This document shows, in pieces, positions 30,894-49,085 of a DNA stretch of 64,000 bases. Position 1 is the stretch's first letter. The number at the start of each line of letters is the position of its first letter. The stretch is from Collybia mongolica (Eukaryota; Basidiomycota; Agaricomycetes; Agaricales; Clitocybaceae), in contig JAAXNY010000021.1 in the NCBI GenBank assembly GCA_013420905.1, positions 124,001-188,000 of the forward strand. The letters run 5' to 3'. The notes below the pieces were generated by a model, which did no database searches, was not told where the DNA came from, and worked only from the letters and a program-made list of their open reading frames with translations. Both the position numbers and the translations under genes were made by a program.

Positions 30894-32640
30894 ATGCCTC
30901 CAAAACATGCTGTGAAGAGCTGTAGCGATGGCCCTGATCAACCAGATTCTCCTAGACAAAGGCAAGGTCAGAAGGAAACCCAAGCAGCCCAGCACAACAC
31001 CAAAATGGCTTCCAACAATCCTCCAAAGCTACGATGGGGTCGGAAAGGGACCCAGCCAGCTGAGCAGGACACTGGCACTGACAAATCAGCCAGTGATCCG
31101 ATGAAACCAGAAGAACAAGAGTGATCAAAGCCCTGGCCGAAAGGCCGTCCACACACAAAAACTTCCATCCCCACTGATACCCCCATCAGGAATGATCAGC
31201 AGTCCTCAAATACCAGTCCTGGCACTCGCAAACGGGCTTGGAAAGATGAAGAAACAACCACAGAGGTACCAGAAGATGACTCGACGACACGGAAGCAAGC
31301 CAAGAAGAATACTGACATGTCTGGAGAGGCAAAGAAGTCTTGCAGCCAGAAGCCAAATGAGGTGGCTGCTGTTGGGGATCCTCTACCAAATCGTCTGGGC
31401 CGGAATGTCCATCCTGCCACACCAAAACGGACTCGTTACACAGCAAAAGAAGTTGCCGCTGAGTGCGAAGCACAGAAGCAAGCTATAGAAGAGAAGATAC
31501 AAGAGGGGGAGAGGGCAAAGGAGCTGTTGGCACAGATGAACGTAAATGAGGAACTTGAAGATGAACAGATGCTTACCGAGAATGGACAACAATTATCTGC
31601 AGCAATACACAAGCGAGGAAGAAAATGCCTTGAGGAGAGTGAAGGTGGAGAGGATTTCGACTTCACCACGGTTGACCAGGAGTCCTACTCTAATGATCTG
31701 AGCGATGAACCTGAAACGGGGAAGGGGGTAGGTGATCAAGTGCATCAATGCTATTTCAAATTTGCTGACCAACCAAAATTATTCCCAGAGGAAAAATAAG
31801 AAACCAGCTAAAGGTGCATTGCGCAAGGAGATCCAGAAGAAGGAGAAGACACTACGTAGCAAGCGCGGTGATGGTGGGACAAACTCGACCAAGAGGGTCA
31901 AAACAGCTGACGCACCGTGAGTTGAATCACATGGCGTTTATCTTATCCTGAATCTTATTCCGATTTCCGATCACCTGTAGATTCACCCCCTTCGACTCAG
32001 CCCCGAGGAAATACCAGAATGCAGGTCTTTGTAGCAATCTGAAGCCGAAGAACTCCAAGAAGGCACCTGAAGTTATTGATCCTTTCCAAAGTGGCGGCCT
32101 TGATGATGAAGACGCAATTTCTGTCAGGCCTTCCTTCCCTCGCACTCAAGCACGCAACACCAGTGTGAATACAGAGCGCAATTGGTTGCGCAAGAATGAG
32201 GTTCGTTCAATGCTTTAATGTTTGCATGAAAGTTCTTATCAGTGGCCTAGCTTGTCGAGATGGTTGAAAGCATTGATGAGACCCCAGTCAAGGTGAGCAA
32301 CAATATGTGTTATTGATCTCCAACTTGAATGATGGAATTTCGTTGAATCCCTCTGGACCCAAACAGCCGGAAAAGAAGAAGTCGAAAGTCAAGAACTTGA
32401 AAAATCCACCGGAGGCCAAGTCCGTGCATGCAGAATTTGCAACCGGCGCAGAATTCCTTCGTGATGCTCGCTGGCCAAATGTCCTCATTCCGACACTCAC
32501 ACATGCCCTCTATAACTCATGGGAACCTTTTGTTCACTTTACCTCTGAATCTTCGACATTCCTTGCAACAGTGCAAAATGCTTTCAATCTCTCTTTCACA
32601 AACATTGATTTTGCATTGACATCTGATGACCCCCTCGTTA
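30894..32640 (+). pseudogene. DUF6532-like basidiomycete repeat-family gene, 3'-truncated
   Basis: Plus-strand exons read MPPKHAVKSCSDG, then a charged linker (SPGTRKRAWKDEETTTEVPE), a coiled-coil-like stretch (KEVAAECEAQKQAIEEKIQE) and acidic and lysine-rich segments. From 32360 the start of the conserved domain appears: FLRDARWPNVLIPTLTHALY, EPFVHFTSESSTFLATVQN and ALTSDDPLV. This resembles the abundant DUF6532 family of Agaricomycetes, whose function is unknown. The domain is cut at about 32640 by a LINE fragment, so most of it is missing. Exon borders in the first half are uncertain. Confidence 0.5.
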
Positions 32641-32898
32641 CCCACCTCCACCATATTACAAGTGGTGTGGAGATTGAAGACCACCAACTGGCACACATCA
32701 GCGCCGTCTCAACTCGTGTTGAGGCAGGTGGAGCGCCGGTTATATCTGCTGACTTTGCACGACACGAAGCAGTTACATGCATGCTTGACAGCTGGAAGTC
32801 TCTCTTCCAATCCAAGAAGTACATTGGCTCCAATTTCCTGACGCTCTATGCGAAAAAGGACACCCAGCTCACTCCGACCCATGTAAACAATGGGCCGT
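32641..32898 (+). mobile_element. Fragment of the LINE ORF2 (258 bp)
   Basis: The sequence is about 96% identical to the RNase H-distal part of the LINE at 25440-25700 (reverse complement) and reads HITSGVEIEDHQLAHISAVS in frame with the DUF6532-like exon. It is truncated on the right by the gypsy 5' LTR at 32899; the LINE itself would continue GGATGCGC at that point. Confidence 0.9.
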
Positions 32899-34116
32899 TG
32901 ATAGGGCCCGAAATTGTTTGCACTTATAAAGTCGACAAGTAAGGCTATTAGTGTCATTTCTAATAACCAAGTAAGCGGTAATAAAGGATTAGAGTCGAGC
33001 TCCAAGACAGCTAATCAGAGTGAACTAGTCTAATGGATAATACACTATCAGTACAGAGGACTATGAGTACGGTCTATTATTAGTCCTATTCACCATGCCC
33101 AGTTACAACCTCGGTGTCTTAGTTCATAAGTAACCGTTGTAGTATGATATTATTAGTCCGGGGATCATCATTAATAGGAGAAGTAATTGTAAATTCGGGA
33201 CTTGCACAACCCGATCCTAGTCAGGGGTACTTGGTGTTAACTACCGGAAGCGACGGGACACCGTGAATAACAACCGGGACAATCAGGGGGAGTAAACGAC
33301 AGTGCCGCGCTGTTTTAAATAACAAAGCGCGCGGTCGGGACTTGATAAGAGTTTAGCCCGCTCTTTCAATATTTGATAAGTAACCAGTAAACGGCATAAT
33401 TGGCACGCATGGCACGCGCGCCAAGTTGTAGAGGACGCATCAGCATTGAATACAGATCCTTGGCGCGCGGGAGCGCGGTTCCGTGTAAAATTTACAATTC
33501 CGTATGATATTTAGTTTGTACACTATAAATAGACTGTAGATGAGTAGCGCTAAGGCAAGGAATCTTGCCCCCACTTCGCGCGACTATAGAGTATACAAAT
33601 CACATTTGTTAAAACACTATTGCGTGTCCGAATTAAGGATCAGATTGCTTCAACGTGTCTTGATTGGAATTGATTGGAGAACCACAGAATTAAAGAAGCT
33701 TAGTTCACTTGGAACTTAGTACCGTATTGTCCATTGGAATTACTAGGCACTTGGCCTAAGTGCACTTGGCACTGTATTGTTTGATAAGTCGCTTGGACTT
33801 ATAGATCCGCTTGGGATCGCTAATAATTGAACGTACACTTGGTACTCAGTCTATTGGATCGAGAGATTTTATAAATATACCTAGCAGGTTTTTGAACCTG
33901 TGTTGAAGCTTTTGTCTAAATCGAACCCGTTGAGAGATCATTGGAAAGGGCTTTGGCTAGTACTATTCAAAGCTTAGTGCTTCTAAGCACTTGAACCCGA
34001 ACTCAAAACAGGCGATTCCTACTGTTCGTGTGTTGATTGTTAGGTTTGGTGTGTGTGTGTGTGAAGGATTACATTACATAGCATCAGCGCACTTATAGCC
34101 CAGGAGCCCCCTTTCA
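32899..34116 (+). repeat. gypsy 5' LTR (1218 bp)
   Basis: It begins TGATAGGGCCCGAAATTG and ends AGGAGCCCCCTTTCA. It contains about 118 bp (32950-33070) absent from the 3' LTR. A TATA-like CACTATAAATAGAC lies near 33521. Confidence 0.93.
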
Positions 34117-34140
34117 TCTGGAGCCCACCGCGAGGGTTCA
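34117..34140 (+). promoter_or_regulatory. Putative primer-binding site of the gypsy element
   Basis: Two bases after the LTR, TGGAGCCCACCGCGAGGGTTC begins with TGG and would pair with a tRNA 3' end whose T-arm contains GAACCCTCGCGG. The isoacceptor was not identified. Confidence 0.5.
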
Positions 34141-34572
34141 GAGTTTTTGAATAGTCTAAAGAGAGCGTCTTTCTTTGAAAAATATTATACCAAGACGAGT
34201 AACGTTGTCTACAAATTGAAGTAGAGCGGAGAAAGTTTAGTCAATCTGTCTCAAGAGCCACGCCCACAAGCCAGCTCGTCAAACAGACTAACTAATCAGC
34301 CACTTGCAAGACAAGTAGCTACAAAAACGCGGCAGACTAAAAATTCGCAAAACGCTGGAGTAACAGAGTCGTTACCACCTCCTAGGCGAGCGCGCACACG
34401 AGGATCTTCACAACCAGCCTTTGGATCTTCAGGACCAAGGCAAGTATTTAGAACTCCAGAGCCCTTAGGAAACATATCGACTACTAGTAAACCAGTAGCG
34501 CGCAGAAGATCGTCCGTAGTAAACCCAGTAGCAAACCCGAACTCGTTAGCTACTCAGAACCGTTCAGTAATC

Positions 34573-36084
34573 ATGACTGAACCCCCTCGTAAATATATGC
34601 CCCAACCAGGCGTCCGTGATGCACCAGTATTCAAAGGAAAAGAGCCCACGGGTTTAATCCGGTTTCTGGAGCGAATGGAGGTCCTATGGAAGGAGTGTAA
34701 CATTACAAATGATGAAGAAAAGAAGTTAATGTTAGGAAAATACGCAGACCTACAATCAGAGAATGAGTGGAGGGCATTAGACCACTATAAGACAGGCACT
34801 TGGACGGATTTCAAGACAGAGTTGATCTCTAGTTATCCGGAAGCACTCGATCAAGTAGAAGGATCAGTAGCCAAGTTAGAAGCAGTGTGTCGCGCCAACC
34901 CACGTATTGGAGTAACCGATGAGGCCGCGCTGAAAAAGCTGAAGCGTGAATTCAAAGCAGAATCTATTAAACTCTTGGGAGTTAGGCCACCTATTATCTC
35001 TAACCGAGAATTAGTTACCAAGTTCTTGGGATGTCTAGACGAAGTCTTCAGATCCCAAGTACAAGGAAGGCTAACCCTGCTAGGGAATAATCAGTCTAAT
35101 GCTACACAGGCAGGACAAGCCGTTGCTACAAACAACCGAGCAGATCCTAATACTATTGCCGAAGCCGCCGCGCTCGCGCGACGAAAAGGGGATCAGTACG
35201 ATCTGGAGGAAGTTATAGCAACTGCAATCAGCATTTCTGAAGGCGTAGCCAACATGAATATTCCAGACACAAATAGATCGTTTATAACGTCCGTAACAGC
35301 AACAGCAGCGCCCAAAATCAAAGTAGAGATGGATGAAATAAAACAACAAATAGTTAATTTGTTAGACCGTCTCCAAGTAAATGAGAAGAATACAAGGAGT
35401 GGATTCGAGGATGTAATGAAAGCGCTTCAACAAGCAACTGTTCAGAACCATGCCGCAAATAGCCCACCCCAGCAGCATCAGTATCAGAATCAGTACGGAA
35501 AGCCTAAAGAAGGACAACCGCAAAGACCGAATGCGTATAAATGTCACTACTGTTTTACACCCGGACACTTCATAATGGCCTGTCCCAAGAAACAGAAACA
35601 TTTTGAGGAAGGGAAAATAAAAACCAACGCAAATGGAGGAGTATGCTTACCAGACGGATCATATATCCCAAGAGAACCAGAAACGGTATCATTGAAAGAT
35701 AAAGTGGAACACTTCCATTCAAAGAAGGTAGCGGCCCTTTATTACGGAGATGTCACGGAAGGACCCGCTCCAGGAGTATTGTCCGTTATGCAGTCACATA
35801 ATGCAGTAGACAATAGTAACGACATTGGAACCTTGAAAGCCATAATGGCACAAATGGCACAATTTCAAGCGCAACAAATGTTAGGACAACAGAGCGCGCA
35901 AACTGCGTTGCCAGTACCGCCTCAGATGCAGAAACAGGAATATATAAATAATAACTATAATCCTACGGCAAAGAGCGCGCCGAATCCTGACATAGTAGCC
36001 TTACAAGCACAAATGAGTACTTTATTAGGGCAGGTAGCAGAACTCAATAACCAAAACAAGGTTAAAGAGTCGGGTTTCAATTAG
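34573..36084 (+). CDS. gypsy Gag
   Basis: This 503-residue Gag starts at ATG 34573 (MTEPPRKYMPQPGVRDAPVF). The capsid-like part has FLERMEVLWKECNITNDEEK and WRALDHYKTGTWTDFKTELI, typical of fungal gypsy Gag. A CCHC knuckle, CHYCFTPGHFIMACP, lies near residue 325, and glutamine-rich segments follow. The same frame is open upstream to about 34220 without an ATG, so a longer N terminus from a non-AUG start is possible. It ends at TAG 36082-36084, just after a GGGTTTC heptamer in -1 frameshift phase. Confidence 0.88.
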   Translation: MTEPPRKYMPQPGVRDAPVFKGKEPTGLIRFLERMEVLWKECNITNDEEKKLMLGKYADLQSENEWRALDHYKTGTWTDFKTELISSYPEALDQVEGSVAKLEAVCRANPRIGVTDEAALKKLKREFKAESIKLLGVRPPIISNRELVTKFLGCLDEVFRSQVQGRLTLLGNNQSNATQAGQAVATNNRADPNTIAEAAALARRKGDQYDLEEVIATAISISEGVANMNIPDTNRSFITSVTATAAPKIKVEMDEIKQQIVNLLDRLQVNEKNTRSGFEDVMKALQQATVQNHAANSPPQQHQYQNQYGKPKEGQPQRPNAYKCHYCFTPGHFIMACPKKQKHFEEGKIKTNANGGVCLPDGSYIPREPETVSLKDKVEHFHSKKVAALYYGDVTEGPAPGVLSVMQSHNAVDNSNDIGTLKAIMAQMAQFQAQQMLGQQSAQTALPVPPQMQKQEYINNNYNPTAKSAPNPDIVALQAQMSTLLGQVAELNNQNKVKESGFN

Positions 36085-37304
36085 GTCCGATGAAGGAGGC
36101 TAAGGAACACGCTAGACCTACGACTAGGTCGCGTTCCAAGAGACAGCCAGAGGACCGAAATAAAAACAGAAATAGTCGTCAAGAAAGTAACGATTCGGAG
36201 AGTAGTCGGGATAGTAGCGAAGAGGAGTTGGTAGCGCCGGTAGCGCCGTCTCCAAGGAAAAAGAAAGTAAATTTTGTTGAACCATCAGTAAAGTCTCCAG
36301 TACGAAAAGAATTACCCTACATCGATGTGCCTGTGGTACCCTACATACCCCGGAGAACGGAACGCAACCCTGAACCAGTTGATCTGCTACCTAATTTTAA
36401 CACTAAGCGCGGTCCGACTTATGAAACTAAGTCCCCGATAGAAGTAAAATTAAAAGGTGGTGATATAATTGCTAAAGTGTTAGACAACCCTATCACATTG
36501 ACCACGGGAGAGTTAATGGGCTCGTCAAAAACCATTAGAGATGGGATAAAGAATATTGTAACTGCCAGACGTAAGTCCCTCACCCAAAGGGACGCTAACT
36601 TGCAAATAAACGGAATAGATGAGGAAGACGTCTTACCCTTTGGAGGGGACTGGGAACTTGATGATAACTACTTACGGCATGACGCACTACCAGTAGAGTC
36701 AATCCCATTCCAGTCTTTCTTCATCTCGGAGTATGACCGCGGCGGAATACCTAAGGGATCTATAATATGCGGAGACCCAGTCCTACAGTATTTAGAATCT
36801 TTACCAGCTGGGGAAGAGCCCAAACAGTTGTATGTAGCAAAAGAATCGGCCTCTTTGCGCGCAGTATATCCAGTAATAAATGGGGTAGGAACGGAGGAAT
36901 CTTTATTAGATGGGGGATCCCAAATAGTATCAATGGCTAAACAAACGGCTTTAGACTTAGATATTTCATGGGATCCGGACGTTGTCATACACATGCAGAG
37001 TGCTAATAAACAAGTTGAGAAAACAGCGGGATTAGCGCGCAATGTTCCTTTCTTGTTTAATGACATGGCCATCTACCTCCAAGTACATATCATAAATTCA
37101 CCCGCATACAAAGTATTGCTCGGGAGACCGTTTGATACACTCACGGAAAGTCAGATCAAAAATGCTCGGGACGGGGGACAAGTAGTCACTATCACGGACC
37201 CTAACATGGGACGAAGGTGTACTATCCCTACCCATGCAAAGGGATCACCGCCTAAGCTGTTGAAAAGACAACCGGAGCAGGATTTTCGGCCTTCGATGAA
37301 TTAA
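36066..37304 (+). CDS. gypsy protease region
   Basis: The frame is -1 relative to gag. An ATG at 36090 exists, but the frame is open from 36066, consistent with entry by frameshift. A serine/charged linker precedes a retropepsin-like segment: VYPVINGVGTEESLLDGGSQ with DGGS in the D-S/T-G position, followed by FNDMAIYLQVHIINSPAYKV and LLGRPF. The protease would cleave the polyprotein. It stops at TAA 37302-37304, where the pol frame (again -1) is already open. Confidence 0.75.
   Translation, partial: RVGFQLGPMKEAKEHARPTTRSRSKRQPEDRNKNRNSRQESNDSESSRDSSEEELVAPVAPSPRKKKVNFVEPSVKSPVRKELPYIDVPVVPYIPRRTERNPEPVDLLPNFNTKRGPTYETKSPIEVKLKGGDIIAKVLDNPITLTTGELMGSSKTIRDGIKNIVTARRKSLTQRDANLQINGIDEEDVLPFGGDWELDDNYLRHDALPVESIPFQSFFISEYDRGGIPKGSIICGDPVLQYLESLPAGEEPKQLYVAKESASLRAVYPVINGVGTEESLLDGGSQIVSMAKQTALDLDISWDPDVVIHMQSANKQVEKTAGLARNVPFLFNDMAIYLQVHIINSPAYKVLLGRPFDTLTESQIKNARDGGQVVTITDPNMGRRCTIPTHAKGSPPKLLKRQPEQDFRPSMN
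36072..36078 (+). promoter_or_regulatory. Candidate -1 frameshift site, gag to pro (GGGTTTC)
   Basis: In the gag frame the codons read TCG GGT TTC AAT TAG, so G GGT TTC fits the X XXY YYZ rule exactly. Slipping back one base enters the protease frame, which is open from 36066. A bulged stem-loop (GGAAC...GTTCC with inner GACCTA/TAGGTC) lies at 36104-36137, farther downstream than the usual 5-9 bases. Confidence 0.5.
37280..37286 (+). promoter_or_regulatory. Candidate -1 frameshift site, pro to pol (GGATTTT)
   Basis: The pro-frame codons read CAG GAT TTT CGG; the heptamer G GAT TTT is in -1 phase and leads into the pol frame (FSAFDELIQSDQ). GGAUUUU is a documented -1 site in red clover necrotic mosaic virus. 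A simple one-base deletion is the alternative. Confidence 0.4.
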
Positions 37305-40300
37305 TCCAAAGTGATCAAGGAGAGCTAGCCGTAGAAATTGCTGAAGATGAGAACGGAAACTTTATTATAACGGGTTATAGACACCCTACTGATAAACGGA
37401 ATTTTGGTCACAAAGAACTTAGAGATGTCTTTTTGTCTAGAAGTGATGTGAACATGAATAGTACAGTACCTGAACGTGAATTACTAGCCACGTACTTGGC
37501 TTCCGTAGATGAGCGCGATGGACCAGTAATAAACTACGAGCAGAACAGCAGCGACCCAGCAAGTACACCCACTAGACCTATGACATACGCTCAAGAACAA
37601 CCCATGATCGATAAAGCTTTAAGTAAATTAAAGCAGTGGCAAATTGGCACCAACGAGCGCGGTCTTGGAACTGCAACAAGTGAAAAGTGTAATATTGAGC
37701 CCATGGATCAGCTAGTAGGAAAGAAGTATAAACCAGTACATTTGAAAACAAAACCAACACTGGCGGACCTGCCTGATAAATTTAGAATTATCAGAGATAT
37801 AAAGGGTGACCCTTTAGCGGCCCTAGTAGTTCTAACGCCTAACCCACCTCTGTTTAAACCAACTGGAAGGTATACTGAGGAAAGGCGCGTGGAATTCCAA
37901 AGAGTACACGAAGAAGAGAGCTTCTTAAAACCTAAAGAGATGGACATAATCCACGACTTTATGTGCAAACATAATGATGGTTTTGCTTGAAATGATAGTG
38001 AGCGTGGTAGCTTTAAGAAGGAATATTTTCCTCCCGTCGAAATACCAGTAGTCCCACATACGCCGTGGACAGAAAGGAACATTAGAATCCCACCAGGGAT
38101 CTATGAAGATGTTTGTAAAATCATCAAAACTAAAATTGATGCAGGAGTCTATGAGAGATCCAATTCATCATATAGGTCTAGATGGTTTACCGTATTAAAG
38201 AAAGGCCCAGGAAAGAAGCTTAGAATTGTACATAGTCTAGAACCGCTGAATGCAGTCACAATAGCGCACTCGGGTTTACCACCCGCTACCGAAGAACTAG
38301 CAGAACACTTCGCAGGGCGCGCTTGTGGAGGAATGATGGATCTATATGTAGGATACAATGAGAGGCCTTTAGCAGAAACCTCGCGCGATCTAACCACGTT
38401 CCAAACACTGTTTGGCACGCTGAGACTAGTAACACTTCCTATGGGATGGACAAATTCAGTTCCAATATTTCATGATGATGTCACATACATCCTACAGGAT
38501 GAGGTACCACATGTCACAATACCCTACATTGATGATGTACCCGTGCGCGGTCCAGCAACGTGCTATGAACTGCCGGACAGAACAGAAGAAGAGCTACCTG
38601 GTGCTCCAGGTGTTAGGCGCTTCTTCTGGGAACATATGCAAAATGTAAACCGCGTTGTACAGAGAATGAAGTATTCCGGAGGAACGTTTTCAGGATATAA
38701 GTCTATGTTATGCGCAAGTGAAATTCTAGTGGTAGGACATAGATGTACCTATGAAGGACAAAAACCTACTACAGATAGAATCGGTGTAGTTGAAAGATGG
38801 GGACCATGCAAAGATGTCAGTGAAGTACGCGCTTACATGGGAACTATTGGTGTATGCAGGAATTTCATTAAAGACTTCGCCCGTATAGGCCAACCAATTC
38901 AAAAGTTAACTAGAAGTAGTGAACCTTGGATATGGGGGCCTGAGCAAGAAGAAGCGCAGCAGCTATTGTTAGACACACTCAAAAATAGCCCTGCGCTCCG
39001 TCCAATTAATTACACCTGGAATACACCAGTGGTATTGTCAGTAGATACATCATGGAAAGCCGTAGGCTACTATATCTATCAGGAAGACCCTGATATACCT
39101 GGAAGAAAGCACTATGCTAGATTTGACTCGATAACTCTGAATGAGCGCGAAGCGCGCTTCTCACAACCCAAACGAGAGCTATTCGGATTAATGAGAGTTC
39201 TAATGGCATGTTATTATTGGTTTATTGGAGTACGAAATTTGGTAGTGGAAACGGATGCAAAGTACATTAAGGGGATGTTATCAAACCCAAGTCTAGGACC
39301 TAATGCAACGGTAAATAGGTGGATTGATAGGATACTTATGTTCCACTTTACTCTGGTTCATAAAGCTGGTAAAGGCTTTGGCCCAGATGGTCTGTCAAGA
39401 CGAGACGCGCGGCTAGGGGATCCTGTCTACCCGGACCCAGACGATGGTTACGACGAACCCTCAGGTCTTTTAAGGTTTATCAACCCAACAGAAGGATTGG
39501 ATGACCCTTTGGAGCTGTCAGATTTTAAAGAGGAGATCAACACGCGCGGCGGATATTTATTCCAACTTGCGAAGGAAATCTCTGATTCTGAAGTTGAAGT
39601 AAACAATGCCTGGGCTGGTGAAGCAGCATTTATTGGAGAAGTAAAACAGCACTTAGGTTTAGGACGGTTCGGTATTCAAAGAGAAGCTTATCTAAAGCAA
39701 CTTGTAAATACTACTGTCATACCTGATGAAAAGTTTAAATATGACCCTAATGTAAGGGAAGTATATGACGAGTCTAAACGAACACCTACGGCGCAGGAAC
39801 AGGATAAAAACCTACCTTTAATAAAAGAGTGGTTAAAAAGACCACAAAAGAGACCAAAAGGAATGACAGATCGCGCCTACCTAAAGTTTGCAAGGCAGGC
39901 GTCTAATTTCTTTTTGGATCCAGAAGGCAGGATGTATAGGAAAAATATCGATAGCGCGCACCAGCTTGTTGTTGATAAAAATCACCGGACATATATGATG
40001 AGGGCGTCTCACGATTCTGTTGGACATAGGGGTTTCTATGCAACAAAATCCTTAATAGATAAAAGATTTTGGTGGCCAGAAATGGAACGCGATGTATCAT
40101 GGTATGTGAAGTCATGTCACATCTGTCAGACAAGGCTCTTAACTTTGTTGAGAATCCCTCCTGTCATAACCCACACGCCATCTATATTCCAAGTATTGCA
40201 TGCGGACACCATGTATATGAGCCCATTGTCTAATGGTTATAAATACATTGTCCAAGGAAGATGTGCGCTGTCTTCCTGGATGGAAGGCGCGCCCCTCAAA

Positions 40301-41299
40301 TCTGAGGATGGCAAGACCTTGGGAAGGTGGCTGTTCGAAGAAGTAATTTGTAGATGGGGTTCCCTAACAGAAATTGTAACAGATAATGGTCCTGCCTTTG
40401 TTGCAGCCAAAGCGTGGCTGGAATCCAAGTATGGTATTACAGGAATAAGTATATCACCATACAATTCCAAAGGAAATGGGATCGCCGAGCGCGCACATTG
40501 GGATGTGTGTCAAGCTGTCTTCAAAGCTACAGGTGGTGATGTAAAGAAGTGGTACTACTTCTTCCACCATGTAATGTGGGCTGACAGAATTACTATACGG
40601 AAAGGGACGGGTTGCTCCCCCTATTTTATGATTACGGGCGCGCACCCAACCTTACTGTTAGATATTATTGAAGCCACTTGGTTAGTAAAGTTACCAGGAA
40701 AAATATTGACTACAGAGGAACTCATTGGGTTTAGAGCGCAGGCTCTAGCTAAGCACGTCCAGCATGTGGCCGATATGAGGAAACGTATCAATATAGAAAA
40801 ACAAAGGAGACTATTACAGTATGAGAAGGATCACAGCGCAACCATCAGAGACTATGATTTCAAACCAGGAAGTTTAGTCCTAGTTAGACATACCGAGGTC
40901 GAAAGTTCGCTCGATAAAAAGCTGAAGCCACGGTACCTGGGACCAATGATAGTCCTGAGACAAAACCGCGGGGGAGCCTATATTGTTTGCGAAATGGATG
41001 GATCGGTGTGGCAACATAAAGTGGGGGCGTTTAGGGTTATTCCCTATTTTGCTAGGAGTACAATTGAACTGCCGGATAATCTGCAAGATCTAATAGACAT
41101 CTCTAGCGAAACACTAAATGCTTTAGTGGAATCAAAAGATCCCGCTAATAGGCAAGTTTACAAGGAGCGTGACTATACTTTTGACAGAGTCCAATTGGAT
41201 CAGTTCGATTCAGAGTCAAGCTCTAGTGAGAACACTGAGGAAGGGATAGCGCCAGCGCTACCACAAACTACTATGTCACACCGGAAGTTGCATAGGTGA
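37287..41299 (+). pseudogene. gypsy Pol: reverse transcriptase, RNase H, integrase (one TGA stop)
   Basis: One frame runs to the TGA at 41297-41299 except for a TGA at 37988-37990, where relatives have Trp (FAW). Domains: RT with SRWFTVLKKGPGKKLRIVHS, FGTLRLVTLPMGWTNSVPIF and the catalytic PYIDDVPV; RNase H with VVLSVDTSWKAVGYYIY, AKRELFGL-like SQPKRELFGLMRVL and VVETDAKYIKGML; integrase zinc motif HDSVGHRG...CHICQ; and a core with D in HADTMYM, D in VTDNGPAF and E in NGIAERAH. A C-terminal basic/acidic tail follows. A single mutation separates it from an open pol. Confidence 0.88.
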
Positions 41300-41445
41300 T
41301 AAATCAGTAGGGACACAGAAGCAGTAAAGACAGTATAAGCAACGAAGCTAAGTAGTAAGGACAGTGTTAAGCCGAGTAAAGACAGTAATACAAAGGAGCG
41401 TGGGGAGGGACACCATAACTAAGGAGGAAGTTAATTGGACTGCCC

Positions 41446-41900
41446 TCAAGCAGATATGAAGTCATCTTCAACCTCGGGCAAGGGCACGTCAGCCGGAGCT
41501 ACCTCCTCTTTATCAGTGCGGACCTTTTCACGGTGACGGTGAATAACGGGAGTAAGAGTCACAATGTTATGGTAAATAGGCTCTTGAAGTAACTCGGGGT
41601 ATACATGTTGTAGTCCCTGGAATGCCTTACGGACGCCAAAGATAACATTCTGCCAGGACCGCTCCGTCAAAACCAATTTGGACTCAGTCAGGAGTAGCTG
41701 TAAATTGTAAAAGTTGGTTACAAAAATGGCGTTTTAAAAAGTTTAATTGGTAAAAAGTGTACCGTGGTTTTGCCCAACTTCCGGACGCTGACCCTTTGTT
41801 CAACAAGGGTGTCCATCGATAAACGAGCTTGAAAGGTGTGCCACTGAGCTTGGACCATCTTGAAGTTCTCGATGTCTTGATAGTTGGGGGGGCTAGTCAT
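41446..41900 (-). CDS. Antisense accessory gene B of the gypsy element (small helical protein)
   Basis: Two exons, 41900-41763 and 41697-41446, join through a 65-bp GT-AG intron to give about 129 residues. The start MTSPPNYQDIENFKMVQAQW follows a TATAAAAA at 42006-41999 by about 100 bp, and an upstream ATG at 41987 would lie too close to the TATA box. The product is mostly helical with an acidic C terminus (PADVPLPEVEDDFISA). I do not recognise the family. It lies wholly between pol and the 3' LTR on the strand opposite to gag-pol. No disabling change is visible. Confidence 0.65.
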
Positions 41901-41998
41901 AATGATGCAGAGGAAATTGGTTTTTTGAACCAGAACGTTGTAAAGAGAGTATGATAGAGTCGGGCGATGTCTTGGGACGAAAAGCACAGCCAGTGCCC

Positions 41999-42006
41999 TT
42001 TTTATA
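41999..42006 (-). promoter_or_regulatory. TATA box of antisense gene B
   Basis: On the minus strand, TATAAAAAGGGCAC precedes the ATG at 41900 by about 100 bp, a normal fungal promoter geometry. The following region is pyrimidine-rich. Confidence 0.6.
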
Positions 42007-42589
42007 CCTCTACGACTAGAGAAGCGCTACCCAGTCTCTCATTCGTTGCGCGCGTTCTATCCCCAGAAAAATCTATACATTTCAACTGAACAGGTCCGAG
42101 ACGCGTGCCTAATTGAAATGCTGGGCCCAATTGAAAAAGGAGCTCCGTAAAAATTCATGTGGAGCGCGGCAGTGTCCGCATGACAACTGGGACAGTTGTT
42201 GTCAGTGTTGAGGGGGAGATGGGTATAAGCAAAATCGATTTGGAAAAACCTACCAAGGTTACAAGGATTGAAATAGATTGTCTATAAAAAGTCAGTGATC
42301 GCGCCACGGTTTCAATGATCGAGAGAATTGCACCAGAATTAAACTGTACTATTTATAACTTAAGTAGCCGGTGCAAGGGCGGAAGCTTTCTTATGAAGAC
42401 AATAGAACAACGGTTAAACCAATTGTATTGTTTATAGTCCAGGGGACTGTATGTAAAAACATGTGTTGGACTTCAATTAATAAAATTGAAGCCCAACGAA
42501 AGGCGGGGGAATAAATTGTATGTAAGGGCACTAGGGCCCGGGAAAACACAGATAGATAAAAAATGTAGATGGGGGGGGGCGCGGCGCGG

Positions 42590-44517
42590 CTACTCCTCCT
42601 CGCTGTCAGGCATGGACGAAGAGGAACTTGACGACGAAGAACCATCATCAACCTCTGCTTCTTCCTCCAAGGGCGGCCAAGGGAGGTTCTGGAAATCCGC
42701 ATAGAAGAGGAGAGCGCTCTCCGTGGCTGGCGTAGTCAGCAAGAGGTTTTGAAGGCCCTCCAGGCCTTCCTCCTCGTACAACCTACCGATGGTGCCAACT
42801 ATGTGCGCCAACAAGGAGTTGCGCATTTCAAGCGCGCGGTTAGCGGCCTGAATGACCTCCGCAGCAAGAGAGTCCGCGTCGCCTAGCTGAGCATAGGCTT
42901 CAGCAACTGCTAGTAGAATAAGTAAAATCATTCGTAAACAAAAAGACAGAAAGAAAATGGCTTACTAGAAATGCCCGCACCAAGCACCGGCCCCAGATCC
43001 TCACGAAGCCTAGCGCACTTCTGGGGAGTGAGACTGAAGCTGCACTTCCCCTTCTTGGCGGTGGCGCATTCAACACATGGTTTACCCCAACCGTTGAAGG
43101 AGCACTCGATGTCGCTGCGGGTGGCGCACATCGTGCAAGGATAGCCCACCTAGTAAGAATGATCAGTAACAAGAAATAAAAGAGTAATAAACATACGGTA
43201 GATAGGGGATTGTAGCGGCGTCAGCTCCCGGTTGGGAACCAGCGCGTGCTTGCGGCGTGTTGCCTGAACCCTATCCCTAGAACGAGTGGTCTTACGTGAC
43301 CAGCAAGGAGAAGGGGCCGCGGGAGGTAACAACTCCGCGAACCCCTCTTGAGCCAACTGGCGCGCGATCTCTTCATTAAAGAGCCAAAGCTCGGGGACCT
43401 CAACCTTTACTGGCGACTGCCCAGAGGACTAAGGAGATAAAAATGAGTAAAAGTAAATGAGTTCAAAAGAGAAAAGAGACATACGGGACCTGCTTCCGAG
43501 GGATGCAGCGCGGCATCACTGCCAGCCCCCTGGGCGCGCGACATGTCGGACTAGAATTTTGAAAGCAAGTCAGGAATAATGTGAAACCCGTGAAGTAAAG
43601 GATGGTATATACCTGGGGAACCGCGCAGCCTTTGCCCTTGGACCCTGCATTACGCTTCCGCTTGAGGGGCTATTGAAATAAGTCAACCACAGAAGAAAAG
43701 TAATAAAAAGCAGTATTAGACAAACCGCTGGTACCAAGACCGGGGAGTGCGCTGGCAAGGGCGCGGCGGACCAAGTGTCCCGGTACTGATGGTAACGGCG
43801 CAGTGCGCCAACCATGCGAGGAGGGACGAGGAAAGTATCCTGAAAGATACTTTCACCATTGTCGTGCTCGAAGCGCGACCCCACCTGGTCCAGGACTTGC
43901 TCCACAGTGGGAGCCTGGCCCTAAAGTAAAAGGTAGTCAGCTTGACAAGGGCAGGCAGAGTAAAGAAGTAAACAAGTCATTTACCAGAAGAATGGAATTG
44001 TTGCCCAGGTCAGTCGATATGACCGTACGCCAGGAAGACCACGAAGCCTCGCGCGCGTCAACTGGGATGCGCATCACTTGAAGGTGAAGCGCGCGCAGGA
44101 GGAGAATAGCCGGATATGGCAGCGAAAAACGCGCGCCACGGACCACGCCAGTGATGGCATCCTGAGACCAGTAAATAAGTAAATTAGTGAAAGGTTTTAA
44201 TAAGTAAAATATGGGCGTACGATGAGCATGGAGCAGTGATCGACGAAGTCAATCAACTCGTCGAGGTCAAGGGGGCCCTGATGGTCCATACGGGGCGCGA
44301 GCTCCTTGGCCATAATAATCCACCCTTGCTCCATGGCGACGAAGACATCACCCTCGGCATCTTCAAGGAGGTCGGAAAATGAAGGGACCGGCTGGTCCAC
44401 ATAGACCATAGTGGGGGAACGGCCCTCAGTCGGTAAAATCACGGCGGAGAGCAAGAGGGACAGCGCAGAAGGCGAGTGCAGGGCACGAGCCATGGCAGAA
44501 CTGGGAGTAGAAGACAT
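42590..44517 (-). CDS. Antisense accessory gene A of the gypsy element (Zn2Cys6-like cluster)
   Basis: Eight exons are inferred: 44517-44221, 44161-43985, 43920-43735, 43669-43613, 43550-43485, 43428-43197, 43149-42966 and 42909-42590, with introns of about 45-65 bp, roughly 500 residues in all. The first five junctions and the last keep phase. The sixth (43197/43149) is one base out, so either another donor is used or there is a one-base lesion. The protein has an all-helical N-terminal half, a basic patch PLKRKRNAGSKGK, then CTMCATRSDIEC...CVECATAKKGKC with spacing C-x2-C-x7-C-x8-C-x2-C-x7-C, close to fungal Zn2Cys6 DNA-binding clusters, and an acidic polyserine tail. It could be a DNA-binding regulator, but the function is unknown. 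Confidence 0.6.
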
Positions 44518-44966
44518 ATTGGTTAGAGAAGTTGGAGTGTTTGAGCGATGCGAATAGCAAAGAAATTTAGAAATGGGCTATAAAGTCCAAATTGTCTAAA
44601 ACTTAGCAAGGGCGCAAGCTTTTTAAAACGCACAACCCTGCATTGCGAAGTTCTAAAGGACAAGCAGGAGTACCAATCTCTTGCTGAAGTGTCAGAAACA
44701 TAACGAGAGAAAGGTTCAGATGACTGAAATATCTGTAAAGCGATGTCCGAATGTCAAGTATTCTCTCAGGAGATGTATATAACTGTCACGATCCTGATGG
44801 GAAGTAAACCTCTGGGCTCGATCCCAACATCGCGCGCCTACCTGTCTAAAAGCGGAACCGTTGTAACCTTGTACTAAAAGATTAGACACGTGCAGACCCA
44901 AAGTATTGGACCAACATGCTGGCAAAGAGAGACTGAGGACAGTCTACATTTGTGGTATGGGGGAGA
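44518..44966. other. Upstream region of antisense gene A and polypurine tract
   Basis: On the minus strand, TTTTAAAAAGC near 44615 and ACTTTATAGCCC near 44580 are TATA-like and lie 60-100 bp before the ATG. At the right edge GTATGGGGGAGA (44955-44966) is the likely polypurine tract for plus-strand synthesis. Confidence 0.45.
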
Positions 44967-46066
44967 TGATAGGGCCCGAAATTGTTTACACTTGTAAAGT
45001 CGACAAGTAAGGCTATGAGTACGGTCTATTATTAGTCCTATTCACCATGCCCGGTTACAACCTCGGTGTCTTAGTTCATAAGTAACTGTTGTAGTATGAT
45101 ATCATTAGTCCGGGGATCATCATTAATAGGAGAAGTAATTGTAAATTCGGGACTTGCACAACCCGATCCTAGTCAGGGGTACTTGGTGTTAACTACCGGA
45201 AGCGACAGGATCCCGTGAATAGCAACCGGGACACTCAGGAGGAGTAAATGACAGCGCCGTGCTGTTTTAAATAACAAAGCGCGCGGTCGTGACTTGATAA
45301 GAGTTTAGCCAGCTCTTTCAATATTTGATAAGTAACCAGTAAACGGCATAATTGGCACGCATGGCACGCGCGCCAAGTTGTAGAGGACGCATCAGCATTG
45401 AATACAGATCCTTGGCGCGCGGGAGCGCGGTTCCGTGTAAAATTTACAATTCCGTATGATATTTAGTTTGTACACTATAAATAGACTGTAGATGAGTAGC
45501 GCTAAGGCAAGGAATCTTGCCCCCACTTCGCGCGACTATAGAGTATACAAATCACATTTGTTAAAACACTATTGCGTGCCCGAATTAAGGATCAGATTGC
45601 TTCAACGTGTCTTGATTGGAATTGATTGAAGAACTACAGAATTAAAGAAACTTAGTTCACTTGGAACTTAGTACCGTATTGTCTGTTGGAATTACTAGGC
45701 ACTTGGCCTTAGTGCACTTGGCACTGTATTGTTTGATAAGTCGCTTGGACTTATAGATCCGCTTGGGATCATTAATAATTGAACGTACACTTGGTACCCA
45801 GTCTATTGGATCGAGAGATATTATAAATATACCTAGCAGGTTTTTAAACCTGTGTTGAAGCTTTTGTCTAAAACAAACCCATTGAGAGATCATTGGAAAG
45901 GGCTTTGGCTAGTACTATTCAAAGCTTAGTGCTTCTAAGCACTTGAACCCGAACTCAAAACAGGCGATTCCTACTGTTTGTGTGTTGATTGTTAGGTTTG
46001 GTGTGTGTGTGTAAGGGATTACATTTCATAGCATCAGTGCACGTATAGCCCAGGAGCCCCCTTTCA
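44967..46066 (+). repeat. gypsy 3' LTR (1100 bp)
   Basis: It matches 32899-34116 apart from scattered substitutions and a 118-bp segment missing after AAGGCTAT. The tetranucleotide CTAT borders both ends of the missing segment in the 5' LTR. Confidence 0.92.
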
Positions 46067-47247
46067 GCGCGGGGCTTCTTGGCTTTTCCAATGATGAATG
46101 GTGGAAGCTTCTCTGATCCATCGGCATTCGATGTGAATGCGTACGTCAATCAAACCTTCTTTCCTTTAACACCTGAGTTTCGTTTGTCAGCCAAACCGCG
46201 ATCTGGGGGTAATCTGTATGAAAAGTTAATTGCTATCAAATGAGGGTATTAGAAAGGGTACGTGCCCATAAAATAATCCAGTCTCATCCATATTAAAAAT
46301 GTCCCTTAGCTTGTAACCATAGATTTTGATGAGCTCTTGGATACGTCGTCTTTCTGCTTCCACATCCCGCACACTTGCAGATCCTGCCTCACCATGGCGC
46401 TTGAACATCTTCAAGTTACACCTGGCTTTGAAGCGAGATAACCAGCCTTCACTCAAATTCAATCACTCATCATCAGGAACACCAGCCAGATCAGCAAATT
46501 TAACCCATTTCTGGCGCAGAACTTCCCCTGTCAGAAGAATCCTGTGATCCATCGCCTGGGCCACCCATAAATCCATCATTTCCGTGACCTCAGGGTGCTG
46601 GGTTTGACGTGCTCGTTTTGCGGTCCGGTCCGTGTTTCTAGTTGTGCGTGACCATTCTTCTCGTCACTTTGCCTCTTCCTTGACCCATGAAGATACAAGC
46701 AGCTGCTTGATTCGTAGGTTTGGATATCTTGAATCAAAATACTTGGCTGTTCGTGATTGATTCTTCCCGTTGGTGTGATACCAGTCCAGAACCTCGATGC
46801 GCTGTTGAAGGGTTGCATTTTCCTTCTTCGTGAAAACAGGTGCCTGACTGTCTTCGTTCTCCTTCCCACTTTTAACAGTGTTCTCCACCCCTGCGAATCC
46901 CTTTTTTAATGCATCAAATATAAGAATTTTTATCCACACATACGTTTCCGCTTCTTTCCAACTGCCTTGGTGATGTCACCTGCTGCTTCTTGCAGAGTTC
47001 TGACCAGACCCTTTTGAGCATCATCAAAATGACTCAGGGCCTGGTCATAATCCGAAGCATTCTCCAGGGCTTTGACAACCTGCTCCACATCCACCAAATT
47101 TGCTTCATTGTCCAGCCATTCCTCGTCTTCCTGAGATATTGATTTCTTCTTAGCTAGCTGTGCCTCTAAGGCTTCCTTCTTGGTTTTGACTTGGTTTTGT
47201 AGAGTTTTCAAGCCTTTTCGAAGGATCTCGAGAGGTTTCAATGCCAT
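46067..47247 (-). pseudogene. Tigger/pogo-type transposase, 3'-truncated, three TGA stops
   Basis: On the minus strand MALKPLEILRKGLKTLQNQV starts at 47247. A GT-AG intron joins KKRKR to VENTVKSGKEN. A CENP-B/pogo helix-turn-helix follows (QQRIEVLDWYHTNGKNQSRT), then SEGWLSRFKARCNLKMFKRH, the first catalytic Asp in DIFNMDETGLF and, after another intron, TYAFTSNADGSEKLPPFIIG. The frame ends abruptly at the gypsy 3' LTR, so the remaining catalytic residues are lost. TGA codons at 46664, 46463 and 46150 replace Trp or Arg codons. This is a dead cut-and-paste transposon. Confidence 0.82.
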
Positions 47248-48075
47248 AATTGGCTCAGACTTGGTTGGGTTAATGGGTTTGGGGAGATTTTTATATTGGG
47301 GTCATGTACACTAGCTTGATTTAGTTATTTTGAGCCATAAATGTACAAGTGTAGTACTGGTATTCTAATAAAAAAGTATGGGTTTTGCCTCAGAAAGGTT
47401 ATGGGTTATGGGGTATGGGGGAGTTATGGGTTATGGGGTCGTTTTCCCTGCAAACCAACTTGGGAAATGCGAAATCCTATGGGGTCCGGGGGAGTATGGG
47501 TTATGTGAGGTATGGAATAGGAGGGAGGCGACTGTACAACATAAAGCGATGCTAGGCTCATCAGCAACTATATGAGAAGAATGCTTAGACCATCTTTGAA
47601 GAGACACAATGTACGGAACGTTTCAAGAGGAATCCGCTAGGCAAATTTACTCACCCTGACACCCTCTTCTTGTGCTGCCCCAGTAAGATTGTAAGTATGT
47701 ATAGTTTCTGGGCGCATCCAACATAACCTAATGGAACCTCGATTACAGTTGACGATCTGTTACTAATTCCAAGTGCGCTCAATGAATGATATTTCTATCA
47801 TACGTCTATTCAGATATCCTCATTATAGTGGCATTATGTCGAGGCCACGCGGGCTGCTTGATGTGACCTCTAGGCAGTTCTGACACAAGGGCCCATAGAG
47901 CGGAATTGGATTGATGATAATGACAATGCATCACCATTCAACTGATCGACCTTAAAAACAGCCATCGATACCGCGATTGTGGCGTCGACTAGAGTGGGTG
48001 AGCATTTTTTAGTTATAAAACAAGTATTTCATTGCTACGATATAACTGGGCCTTTTGTCGTCCTTTTCGCAGGTA
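47248..48075. other. Intergenic with G-rich TTATGGG repeat
   Basis: No gene was recognised. 47403-47438 has five G-runs (GGG, GGGG, GGGGG, GGG, GGGG) separated by TTAT, TAT and similar, fitting the quadruplex pattern. A weaker version recurs near 47480-47505. Confidence 0.5.
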
Positions 48076-49085
48076 ATGTCTTCCACGGACGAGGCTTCTC
48101 TGGACCCTGCTATCCTCGCGAGCCTCGGAGGGGTATTCCTTGATAACCTCATGCAGACTACCACATTTACGCTTATATATGGTACGATCTCTGGTTCACG
48201 TATAGTTGTTTCATGATTGTATTTTAATCCAGGAATTTTCGTCCTTCTGTTCGCTAATCAATTATGGCATTGCTGTTCGTCTCCACCATTTCTCTGTCTA
48301 GGATTACGGTAATGCTCTTTCACAGTAGAAAAAGGCCATTAAGCCGCCCAAACCTATACATGGCCTCTGCGAGCGCCCAGGCATTGCTGTTCGTCTCCAC
48401 CATTTCTCTGTCTAGGATTGCGGTAACACTCTTTCACAGTAGAAAAAGGCCATTAAGCCGCCCTAACCTATACATGGCCTCTGCGAGCGCCCAGGCCTTT
48501 TTGCTCGCTACCCTTCATGAAGGAGCCATACTTGCGAGTTTCGGAATTCTTATCCATTTCGCGCTCGTCGATTACCAAGATGTACCATTAGCAGCGAAAC
48601 CGCCGTTAGTAAACGGCCTGTTGATGAAGTCCGATGCTCTCATTACCTGGTGGGCGTTTACCCTGTACTGTTACGAGGGAGGCAGTGGATGACAATCCTA
48701 CCATTGCTTCTGTTACTCGGTTCCATCAGTAGGCCGATATCTCCTAAACCCTCACTGTGCCACCCCACTAATTTCTTTGTGTCTAGCATCCGCCCTCCTC
48801 AACTCAGTACTACTATCTACAAATGCCAATATTGAGGGAAAGTTGGTGAGTATGTCGCTCACAGTCAGCATCGGCCTATCCCTCGGAACAAATATCTTCG
48901 CAACTTCTTTTTTACGTGTACTGGTAAGTGTCCACCATTATACCCAACCCATTGTTCATCCCTTACAGGCTTCATATAAAAGGTATTTTGTGTATTCCAG
49001 GTATATTCTGACAACTGCACGCACTCTGCCTGGAGCTTTAACCAATTCCTGCCCTGTAGACCATATACTTCGTTCTTGGGTCTTT
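48076..49085 (+). pseudogene. Seven-helix membrane protein family member, damaged
   Basis: The first exon, MSSTDEASLDPAILASLGGV, is followed by an intron and GIFVLLFANQLW, then RKRPLSRPNLYMASASAQAF and HEGAILASFGILIHFAL, then a segment aligning with WRAFVLTQNRRWR of the intact paralogue at 58126-59497. It is a basidiomycete multi-spanning membrane family of unknown function. A 114-bp tandem duplication lies at the exon 2/3 border, and a one-base shift near 48680 separates LYCYEG from RQWMTILPLLLLLGS. SLTVSIGLSLGTNIFATSF matches the paralogue's SLGTNVIA segment. Probably non-functional. Confidence 0.6.
48269..48496 (+). repeat. 114-bp tandem duplication
   Basis: Two units (48269-48382, 48383-48496) start ATTGCTGTTCGTCTCC and end GAGCGCCCAGGC, with only a few differences. 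The length is divisible by three, so it adds 38 codons in an open frame. Confidence 0.88.

Follow-up and report, generated by a model that had tools for sequence, protein, structure and literature searches.

Evidence for two intron-rich antisense genes behind pol in a Ty3/gypsy-type retrotransposon family of Collybia mongolica

Long terminal repeat (LTR) retrotransposons are copied via RNA and are for that reason normally unable to keep spliceosomal introns in their genes. Here, a 64,000-nucleotide stretch of the genome of the agaric Collybia mongolica (assembly GCA_013420905.1, contig JAAXNY010000021.1, positions 124,001 to 188,000 of the forward strand), below called the window, was analysed together with related sequences of the same genome. 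The window contains an LTR retrotransposon at 32899-46066 whose Ty3/gypsy-type family probably carries two conserved antisense accessory protein genes behind pol, termed gene A and gene B, which would work by the mechanism set out below. Both genes pass retrotransposition with all of their introns.

The genome searched comprises 46 Mb in 26 contigs. The segment 41446-44517 of the window gave at least 41 matches, and about 100 relatives in the same genome carry the antisense segment. Twenty copies of group 1 (about 8 kb each) and eight copies of group b (4.3 kb each) were fetched and aligned with the window. The model of gene A derived from these relatives lies on the minus strand between pol and the 3′ LTR, comprises eight exons and encodes 520 amino acids (aa); its introns in the window are of the GT-AG type and measure 47-64 bp. 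The features of gene A in the window are:

44578..44584, minus strand: TATA-like element TTTATAG, about 60 bp before the ATG, by sequence match only
44221..44517, minus strand: exon 1, ATG at 44517
43985..44161, minus strand: exon 2
43726..43920, minus strand: exon 3
43613..43669, minus strand: exon 4, with the basic stretch KRKR
43485..43550, minus strand: exon 5
43197..43428, minus strand: exon 6, its 3′ end short by 35 deleted bases in the window, which shifts the frame
42966..43149, minus strand: exon 7, with the six-cysteine cluster CX2CX7CX8CX2CX7C
42590..42909, minus strand: exon 8, with a helix-like stretch (by eye), an acidic and serine-rich tail and the stop codon

A first-pass annotation of the window, made from its sequence alone, had read two minus-strand genes here, one with eight exons and one with two. 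The eight-exon gene with GT-AG introns proved real, but its copy in the window is damaged, a 35-bp deletion at the 3′ end of exon 6 stopping the spliced frame at codon 363. Gene A is far beyond chance, because its exons, splice sites and reading frame are found again in the relatives. Its frame is intact to the stop codon in 25 of the 28 fetched copies, and 19 of the 28 combine an intact frame with the complete set of 14 splice dinucleotides. Over the fetched copies, acceptors read AG at all 196 sites and donors GT at 189 of 196; each of the seven lost donors is a G-to-A change after C, i.e. at CpG, which matches the decay that would be expected of methylated DNA. Insertions and deletions are common in the introns, while only two were seen in the exons of the 28 copies, the loss of a single base and an in-frame loss of 12 bases. 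A branch-point-like YTRAY motif is near-invariant in introns 2, 3, 4, 6 and 7, and the strict motif is mostly absent from introns 1 and 5 and from three of the four introns of gene B. Among 24 variants of the exon 7 cluster, five of the six cysteines are invariant and one is nearly so. Basic stretches precede this cluster in the earlier exons, and the protein ends in the acidic-serine tail. Of the 28 copies that extend over the TTTATAG site, 27 retain the element.

The two-exon gene of the first-pass annotation does not stand as a gene of its own. It is the stump of gene B, a minus-strand gene of five exons encoding 383 aa when undeleted (model from relatives), which was left by a deletion of about 0.93 kb. 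In the window, the following parts were located:

41999..42006, minus strand: TATA-like box TATAAAAA, about 100 bp before the ATG, by sequence match only
41763..41900, minus strand: exon 1, ATG at 41900
41513..41697, minus strand: exon 2, 19 bases short
41512..41513: site of the deletion of about 0.93 kb, which removes the end of exon 2, exons 3 and 4 and most of exon 5
41446..41512, minus strand: remnant of exon 5 (3′ end, 67 bases), joined in frame across the deletion

The deleted stretch is present in all 20 fully fetched group-1 relatives, and the group-b fetches span part of it. Among the 20 fully fetched copies, the frame of gene B is intact in 18, and 79 of 80 donors read GT. The sequence GGTATAAAAAGG, or the same with one additional A, is found about 100 bp before the start of gene B in 29/29 copies. 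The earlier statement that one of the two genes stands behind a TATA box was thus right as to the element and too narrow, since both genes have a TATA-like element upstream.

That antisense introns could be carried intact through retrotransposition was likewise predicted beforehand, and it is borne out by the genome. The joined exon 1-exon 2 sequence of gene A, as it would result from splicing, gave no genome match at up to three mismatches, in contrast to 112 matches for the unspliced sequence across the border of exon 1 and intron 1. The exon 7-8 junction was spanned by none of the matches listed for the exon 7-8 protein (best 150 of 227 candidates). An antisense mRNA serving as template would leave intron-less copies. 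A recent transposition has carried 11 introns along, because in the element at locus L041 the two LTRs are identical over alignments of 1029 and 389 bases that jointly cover the 5′ LTR, the target-site duplication ACGG stands on both sides (examined in this one element), and genes A and B are whole with all introns.

The genes are tied to pol across the family. Exon 1 of gene A (99 aa) gave 119 genome matches (all 119 candidates scored), none with an internal stop and, where fully or nearly fully covered, 77-100% identical; exon 5 of gene B gave 114, four of them with an internal stop. For the linkage count, 99 of 141 pol tail matches and 99 of 114 gene B matches were entered, and the 15 remaining gene B matches were restored later. 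Gene B lies directly downstream on the opposite strand in 90/99 pol tails and on the same strand in none (0/99); when partial gene B matches are counted, 94 of the 99 tails have the gene, the window being among the four regained. Exon 1 of gene A was found opposite pol at 81/99 tails and on the same strand within 9 kb at seven of 99, and it lies upstream on the strand of gene B in 86 of 99 gene B copies, in 80 of them at a distance of 3.4-4.1 kb. The genes show marks of an antisense accessory gene of the aORF-3R type: an antisense position between pol and the 3′ LTR, presence in most copies and conservation about like that of pol.

Selection on the reading frames was evaluated with the window copy, L026, L027 and L029 left out of the gene A counts (the window copy was compared separately) and with L015 and L021 additionally left out for gene B within group 1; in L029-L036, the fetched stretch includes little or nothing of exon 5 of gene B. 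In 126 pairs of group-1 (18 copies) and group-b (7 copies) sequences of gene A, the proportion of synonymous differences (pS) was 0.153 and that of nonsynonymous differences (pN) 0.029, a ratio of 0.19, and the introns differ by 7.6% between the two groups. The fixed exon differences between the groups number 37, of which 26 are synonymous, against an expectation of 11.4 ± 2.7 and a maximum of 21 in 2000 simulations of random placement. Against the diverged copy L039, synonymous divergence (dS) and nonsynonymous divergence (dN) were 0.50 and 0.127 for gene A (dN/dS 0.25) and 0.30 and 0.083 for gene B (dN/dS 0.27), and between diverged copies dN/dS ranges over 0.13-0.33. All 11 introns of L039 have the same positions with GT/AG ends. 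The excess of third-position changes survives when CpG-linked changes are dropped (35, 27 and 99 by codon position for gene A, L011 vs L039). Among group-1 copies, gene A, gene B and the pol tail have ratios of 0.42, 0.44 and 0.37, respectively; constraint on the antisense genes is about as strong as that on pol. In exons 1, 2, 6 and 8 of gene A, the model frame is the sole one of six that is open in all or nearly all copies. The copies of the segment elsewhere in the genome thus carry it with introns, frames and antisense position conserved up to a dS of about 0.5 and under purifying selection. The outcomes named in advance as speaking against the proposal, i.e. other copies without the segment or without conserved frames, did not occur. 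A chance capture confined to the window copy was considered and set aside, since the segment recurs with conserved frames in about 100 relatives.

How the introns would survive can be stated as a sequence of steps. By established retrotransposon biology, the genomic RNA would extend between the two LTRs and represent the other strand than that of genes A and B; their introns would read CT...AC in it and could not be spliced, and reverse transcription would, for this reason, copy both genes unspliced. Each gene would be transcribed by the host from its own predicted TATA promoter, and its introns would be removed as those of host genes are. The products may act in the nucleus, as the cysteine cluster, basic stretches and acidic tail of A and the basic stretches of B might indicate, and, by analogy with antisense proteins of retroviruses and plant Gypsy elements, they could regulate the transcription of the element itself or its choice of insertion sites; these last two steps are the less sure ones. 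Both genes have stayed intact during the multiplication of the element, which suggests that it makes use of them.

Several observations weigh against a pair of accessory genes needed by the element. The window element is a decayed copy in which pol, gene A and gene B are all broken. Among the fetched copies, gene A is damaged by an early stop in L026, a frameshift in L029 and the loss of the stop codon in L027, and six of the 28 have lost a donor dinucleotide; gene B is damaged in L015 and L021 and one donor is lost in one of 20 copies. L039, the diverged copy, is frameshifted in exons 5-6 of gene A. The frame test is weaker inside group 1 alone, with ratios of about 0.4, and the sense strand is also open over exons 3, 4, 5 and 7 in all copies and over exon 2 in 19/29. 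Five of the 99 pol tails (C10:1588375, C10:1671201, C9:3182568, C2:304167 and C13:622475) have no gene B match within 3 kb, and four of these have open frames of 687-1335 aa. Because of the gene A donors lost in six of 28 copies and of these five tails, genes A and B may be dispensable in cis. The five tails are possibly variants without antisense genes, which would be useful as a natural comparison. Finally, no Pfam family and no relative in a protein collection identifies gene A or the gene of the second family described below (gene B was searched in Pfam only), and an AlphaFold prediction for exon 7 of gene A from 24 near-identical sequences gave no usable model (mean predicted local distance difference test score, pLDDT, of 50).

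Other origins for the antisense unit were weighed against these data. One or two cellular genes may have been transduced in antisense orientation and now hitchhike without use, and the introns, the TATA boxes and the short intron lengths do look host-like; but about 100 copies keep the frames with pN/pS values like those of pol, and no copy of A or B was seen outside the family in this genome, not every match having been inspected. Apart from a single gene B match of 26% at an E value of 1.4, no gene B match falls below 72% identity, and matches to exon 1 of gene A go no lower than 77%. A captured host locus is largely refuted by the constraint between subfamilies and is regarded as unlikely. 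Maintenance by the host, with A and B domesticated, for instance as silencers of the element or as host regulators, would fit the DNA-binding-like features of A and the many intact copies. The dispersal of the copies, their linkage to pol and the constraint seen between subfamilies of the element speak against it, and the searches, in which not every match was inspected, pointed to no stand-alone A or B locus; domestication is accordingly given very little probability.

The antisense unit might alternatively matter as RNA, its transcripts pairing with the genomic RNA to feed or restrain silencing, with the reading frames secondary. The TATA-like element of gene B, conserved in every copy aligned (29/29), would suit such a role, and double-stranded RNA roles have been proposed for genes of this kind in the consulted part of PMC7264820. 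Against it stands selection on amino acids, visible in the third-position excess and in the dN/dS of 0.13-0.33, and the indels of gene A fall almost entirely in introns, whereas RNA pairing needs no frames; a function as RNA is thus decidedly improbable. Least credible of all is that the real genes lie on the sense strand, as env-like genes, and that the antisense frames are their shadow. The open sense frames over exons 2-5 and 7 described above would allow it, but all three sense frames are closed in exon 6 in 28/28 copies and in exon 8 in 29/29, in exon 1 the sense frame with the fewest closures is still closed in 22/29, and the differences between copies are concentrated at third codon positions when read in the antisense frame; a continuous sense gene is refuted. 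Two antisense protein genes belonging to the element therefore remain the favoured explanation.

The junctions between element and flanking DNA were compared for the window (32898 and 46067) and for the readable ends of L009-L013, L016-L028 and L043, the internal ends on the side of the primer binding site in L015, L030 and L042 having been dropped. At 18 of the 22 junctions, the second and third flank bases next to the LTR are CG; at the remaining four they are TG or CA, possibly decayed CG. CG makes up 4.3% of the dinucleotides of the window. Judged from these flanks, NCGN seems to be the integration site of the element. In six of the 22 flanks, the sequence reads as that of a non-LTR (long interspersed nuclear element, LINE) retrotransposon related to the one in L040, and five flanks (L009, L013, one of L018, L021 and L027) fall inside other copies of the same LTR retrotransposon. 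The loci noted for flanks of these two kinds are window positions 32600-32898 and L043, L009, L010, L011, L013, L018, L019, L021, L024 and L027. Such flanks may reflect a preference, or they may have arisen by chance because the genome is rich in repeats.

The window copy has direct LTRs of the TG...CA type with an adjoining primer binding site and polypurine tract, both recognised by inspection, and the domain order of Ty3/gypsy elements, with RNase H followed by the H2C2 and rve parts of the integrase and with the reverse transcriptase (RT) inferred from its position. Genes A and B lie inside the 3.7 kb between pol and the 3′ LTR. The parts of the window copy on the plus strand are:

32899..34116, plus strand: 5′ LTR, 1218 bp, TG...CA, a repeat shared with the 3′ LTR (96.4% over 1060 bp)
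34119..34136, plus strand: probable primer binding site adjoining the 5′ LTR, starting TGG, by inspection of the sequence only
34225..36084, plus strand: gag open reading frame (ORF) with a CCHC zinc knuckle (Pfam zf-CCHC_2, E value 1.2e-05, 25.4 bits, below the curated cut-off of 27)
36066..37304, plus strand: first part of the pol ORF, protease region by position, weak DUF4100 (ORF and Pfam)
37256..37990, plus strand: second part of the pol ORF, closed by a stop codon in the window copy
37991..41299, plus strand: RT-RNase H-integrase part of the pol ORF, 1102 aa, last stop at 41299 (Pfam RT_RNaseH, Integrase_H2C2 and rve)
44957..44966, plus strand: polypurine-like tract ahead of the 3′ LTR, by inspection
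44967..46066, plus strand: 3′ LTR, 1100 bp, 118 bp shorter than the 5′ LTR

The rve match in the last part of pol lies under its curated Pfam cut-off, and no RT family of Pfam matched the window pol at an E value of 0.01. In the region where a stop codon cuts the window pol, many relatives show a single pol frame of 1347 aa. Viral contigs searched with pol gave no match. The window copy is old and/or recombinant, because its flanks (GCCGT and GCGCG) differ and form no target-site duplication and because its LTRs are 96.4% alike. Beside the 3′ LTR, minus-strand open frames at 46226-47301 resemble a DDE/CENP-B-type transposase gene, an impression from translation only, and a 114-bp tandem duplication with copies 96% alike is located at 48266-48493.

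The identity of the encoded proteins was approached by several searches. Pfam returned no family for gene A, only a chance-level match for gene B and nothing above chance level for gene C, the gene of a second family; bZIP was not among the Pfam matches of A and B. A collection of 5.8 billion proteins, which may hold few fungal ones, contained no relative of gene A or of exon 3 of gene C, and a sequence search of the PDB with exon 7 of gene A gave chance-level matches only. The Zn2Cys6 (Zn_clus) domain of fungal transcription factors has six cysteines in two triplets with basic stretches nearby and a first loop CX2CX6C. Gene A resembles it in the six cysteines, the two triplets and the nearby basic stretches and differs in the first loop, CX2CX7C, which has seven residues instead of the six of the consensus; Pfam does not recognise the cluster as Zn2Cys6 (PF00172), giving no match even at an E value of 10.

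A second, distant Gypsy group of the same genome, several members of which have long pol frames, is 43-45% identical to the family in the pol tail. In its copy L044, the minus strand behind the close of pol (L044 17-19) holds a different gene of three exons, gene C, which was readable in this one copy:

L044 1908-2069, minus strand: gene C exon 1
L044 1137-1805, minus strand: gene C exon 2, after an intron of 102 bp
L044 396-1082, minus strand: gene C exon 3, after an intron of 54 bp

The cysteine cluster of gene C reads CX2CX7CX8CX2CX6C, and in gene C as in gene A an intron ends right before the exon that opens with the cluster. Exon 3 of gene C gave matches at seven loci that, judged by position, directly follow pol tails of the distant group on the opposite strand, and at two of these loci the match contains an internal stop; no match was found at the distant-group tails C5:424547, C6:2042739, C16:23280 and C12:339999 (pol about 45% identical). 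An alignment of gene A exon 7 with gene C detected no sequence homology (hhalign probability 1.5%), leaving a likeness of layout only; common descent of genes A and C is possible. Next to gene C, a Ty1/copia-like gag frame at L044 3500-4701 on the minus strand is probably a nested insertion, an impression from its translation.

A wider reading, which is put forward tentatively and is rather doubtful, holds that a fungal Gypsy lineage owns a self-contained, host-style antisense regulatory cassette that comprises one or two intron-rich genes, each under a promoter of its own. Its antisense introns would pass reverse transcription, its cysteine-cluster protein would bind the element or methylated CpG targets and steer transcription or NCGN insertion, and its layout would have been kept, or gained twice, across families that are 43-45% alike in the pol tail.

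Antisense accessory genes as such have precedents, described here from the consulted parts of the sources cited. In Ty3/gypsy elements of plants, namely Grande (gene23), RIRE2 and Retand (TRP28), such genes lie between pol and the 3′ LTR, occur in most copies and are conserved like other proteins of the element; gene23 is transcribed from a promoter of its own and its product is nuclear, and TRP28 is predicted to bind DNA (PMC7264820, PMC11963269). Their functions are not established, nuclear or DNA-binding roles being suspected (PMC7264820, PMC11963269, PMC8365987). Genes A and B agree with them in position, orientation, presence in most copies and conservation, and differ in that two genes with seven and four introns are present and that a cysteine cluster takes the place of TRP28. 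The word intron does not occur in the main text of PMC11963269 as consulted, and PMC7264820 calls for looking for antisense and spliced transcripts. Among fungi, Boty/BcGypsy1 of Botrytis cinerea has an additional antisense gene, brtn (Zhao et al. 2011; cited in PMC8365987 and PMC7264820), and resembles the present family in being a fungal Gypsy element with such a gene. HBZ and APH of deltaretroviruses are antisense genes with spliced antisense RNA whose products are nuclear regulators (PMC10186651); their promoter lies in the 3′ LTR and HBZ is a bZIP protein, whereas the TATA-like elements of genes A and B are internal and the genes contain as many as seven introns. Penelope-like elements disperse intron-containing genes, for which copying of an antisense template has been proposed as the reason (PMC3846280), but they belong to another class and frame host genes with terminal repeats, in contrast to the conserved accessory genes of an LTR element. 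LTR retrotransposons of bdelloid rotifers have family-specific extra ORFs downstream of pol (PMC5408684), and the text of that paper as consulted describes no antisense or intron-bearing ones (intron does not occur, and antisense occurs once, for small RNAs).

The general idea is not new, because other Ty3/gypsy elements are already known to have antisense accessory genes, one of them with a promoter of its own. The novelty lies in two genes with several introns each that have survived retrotransposition; in the consulted part of the open-access literature, no account of an LTR retrotransposon with multi-intron antisense genes was found. Placement on the antisense strand would offer retroelements in general a way to possess genes of the conventional cellular type. 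With about 100 copies, several subfamilies and at least one very recent insertion, the C. mongolica elements offer a clean family for testing what the antisense accessory genes of Gypsy elements do.

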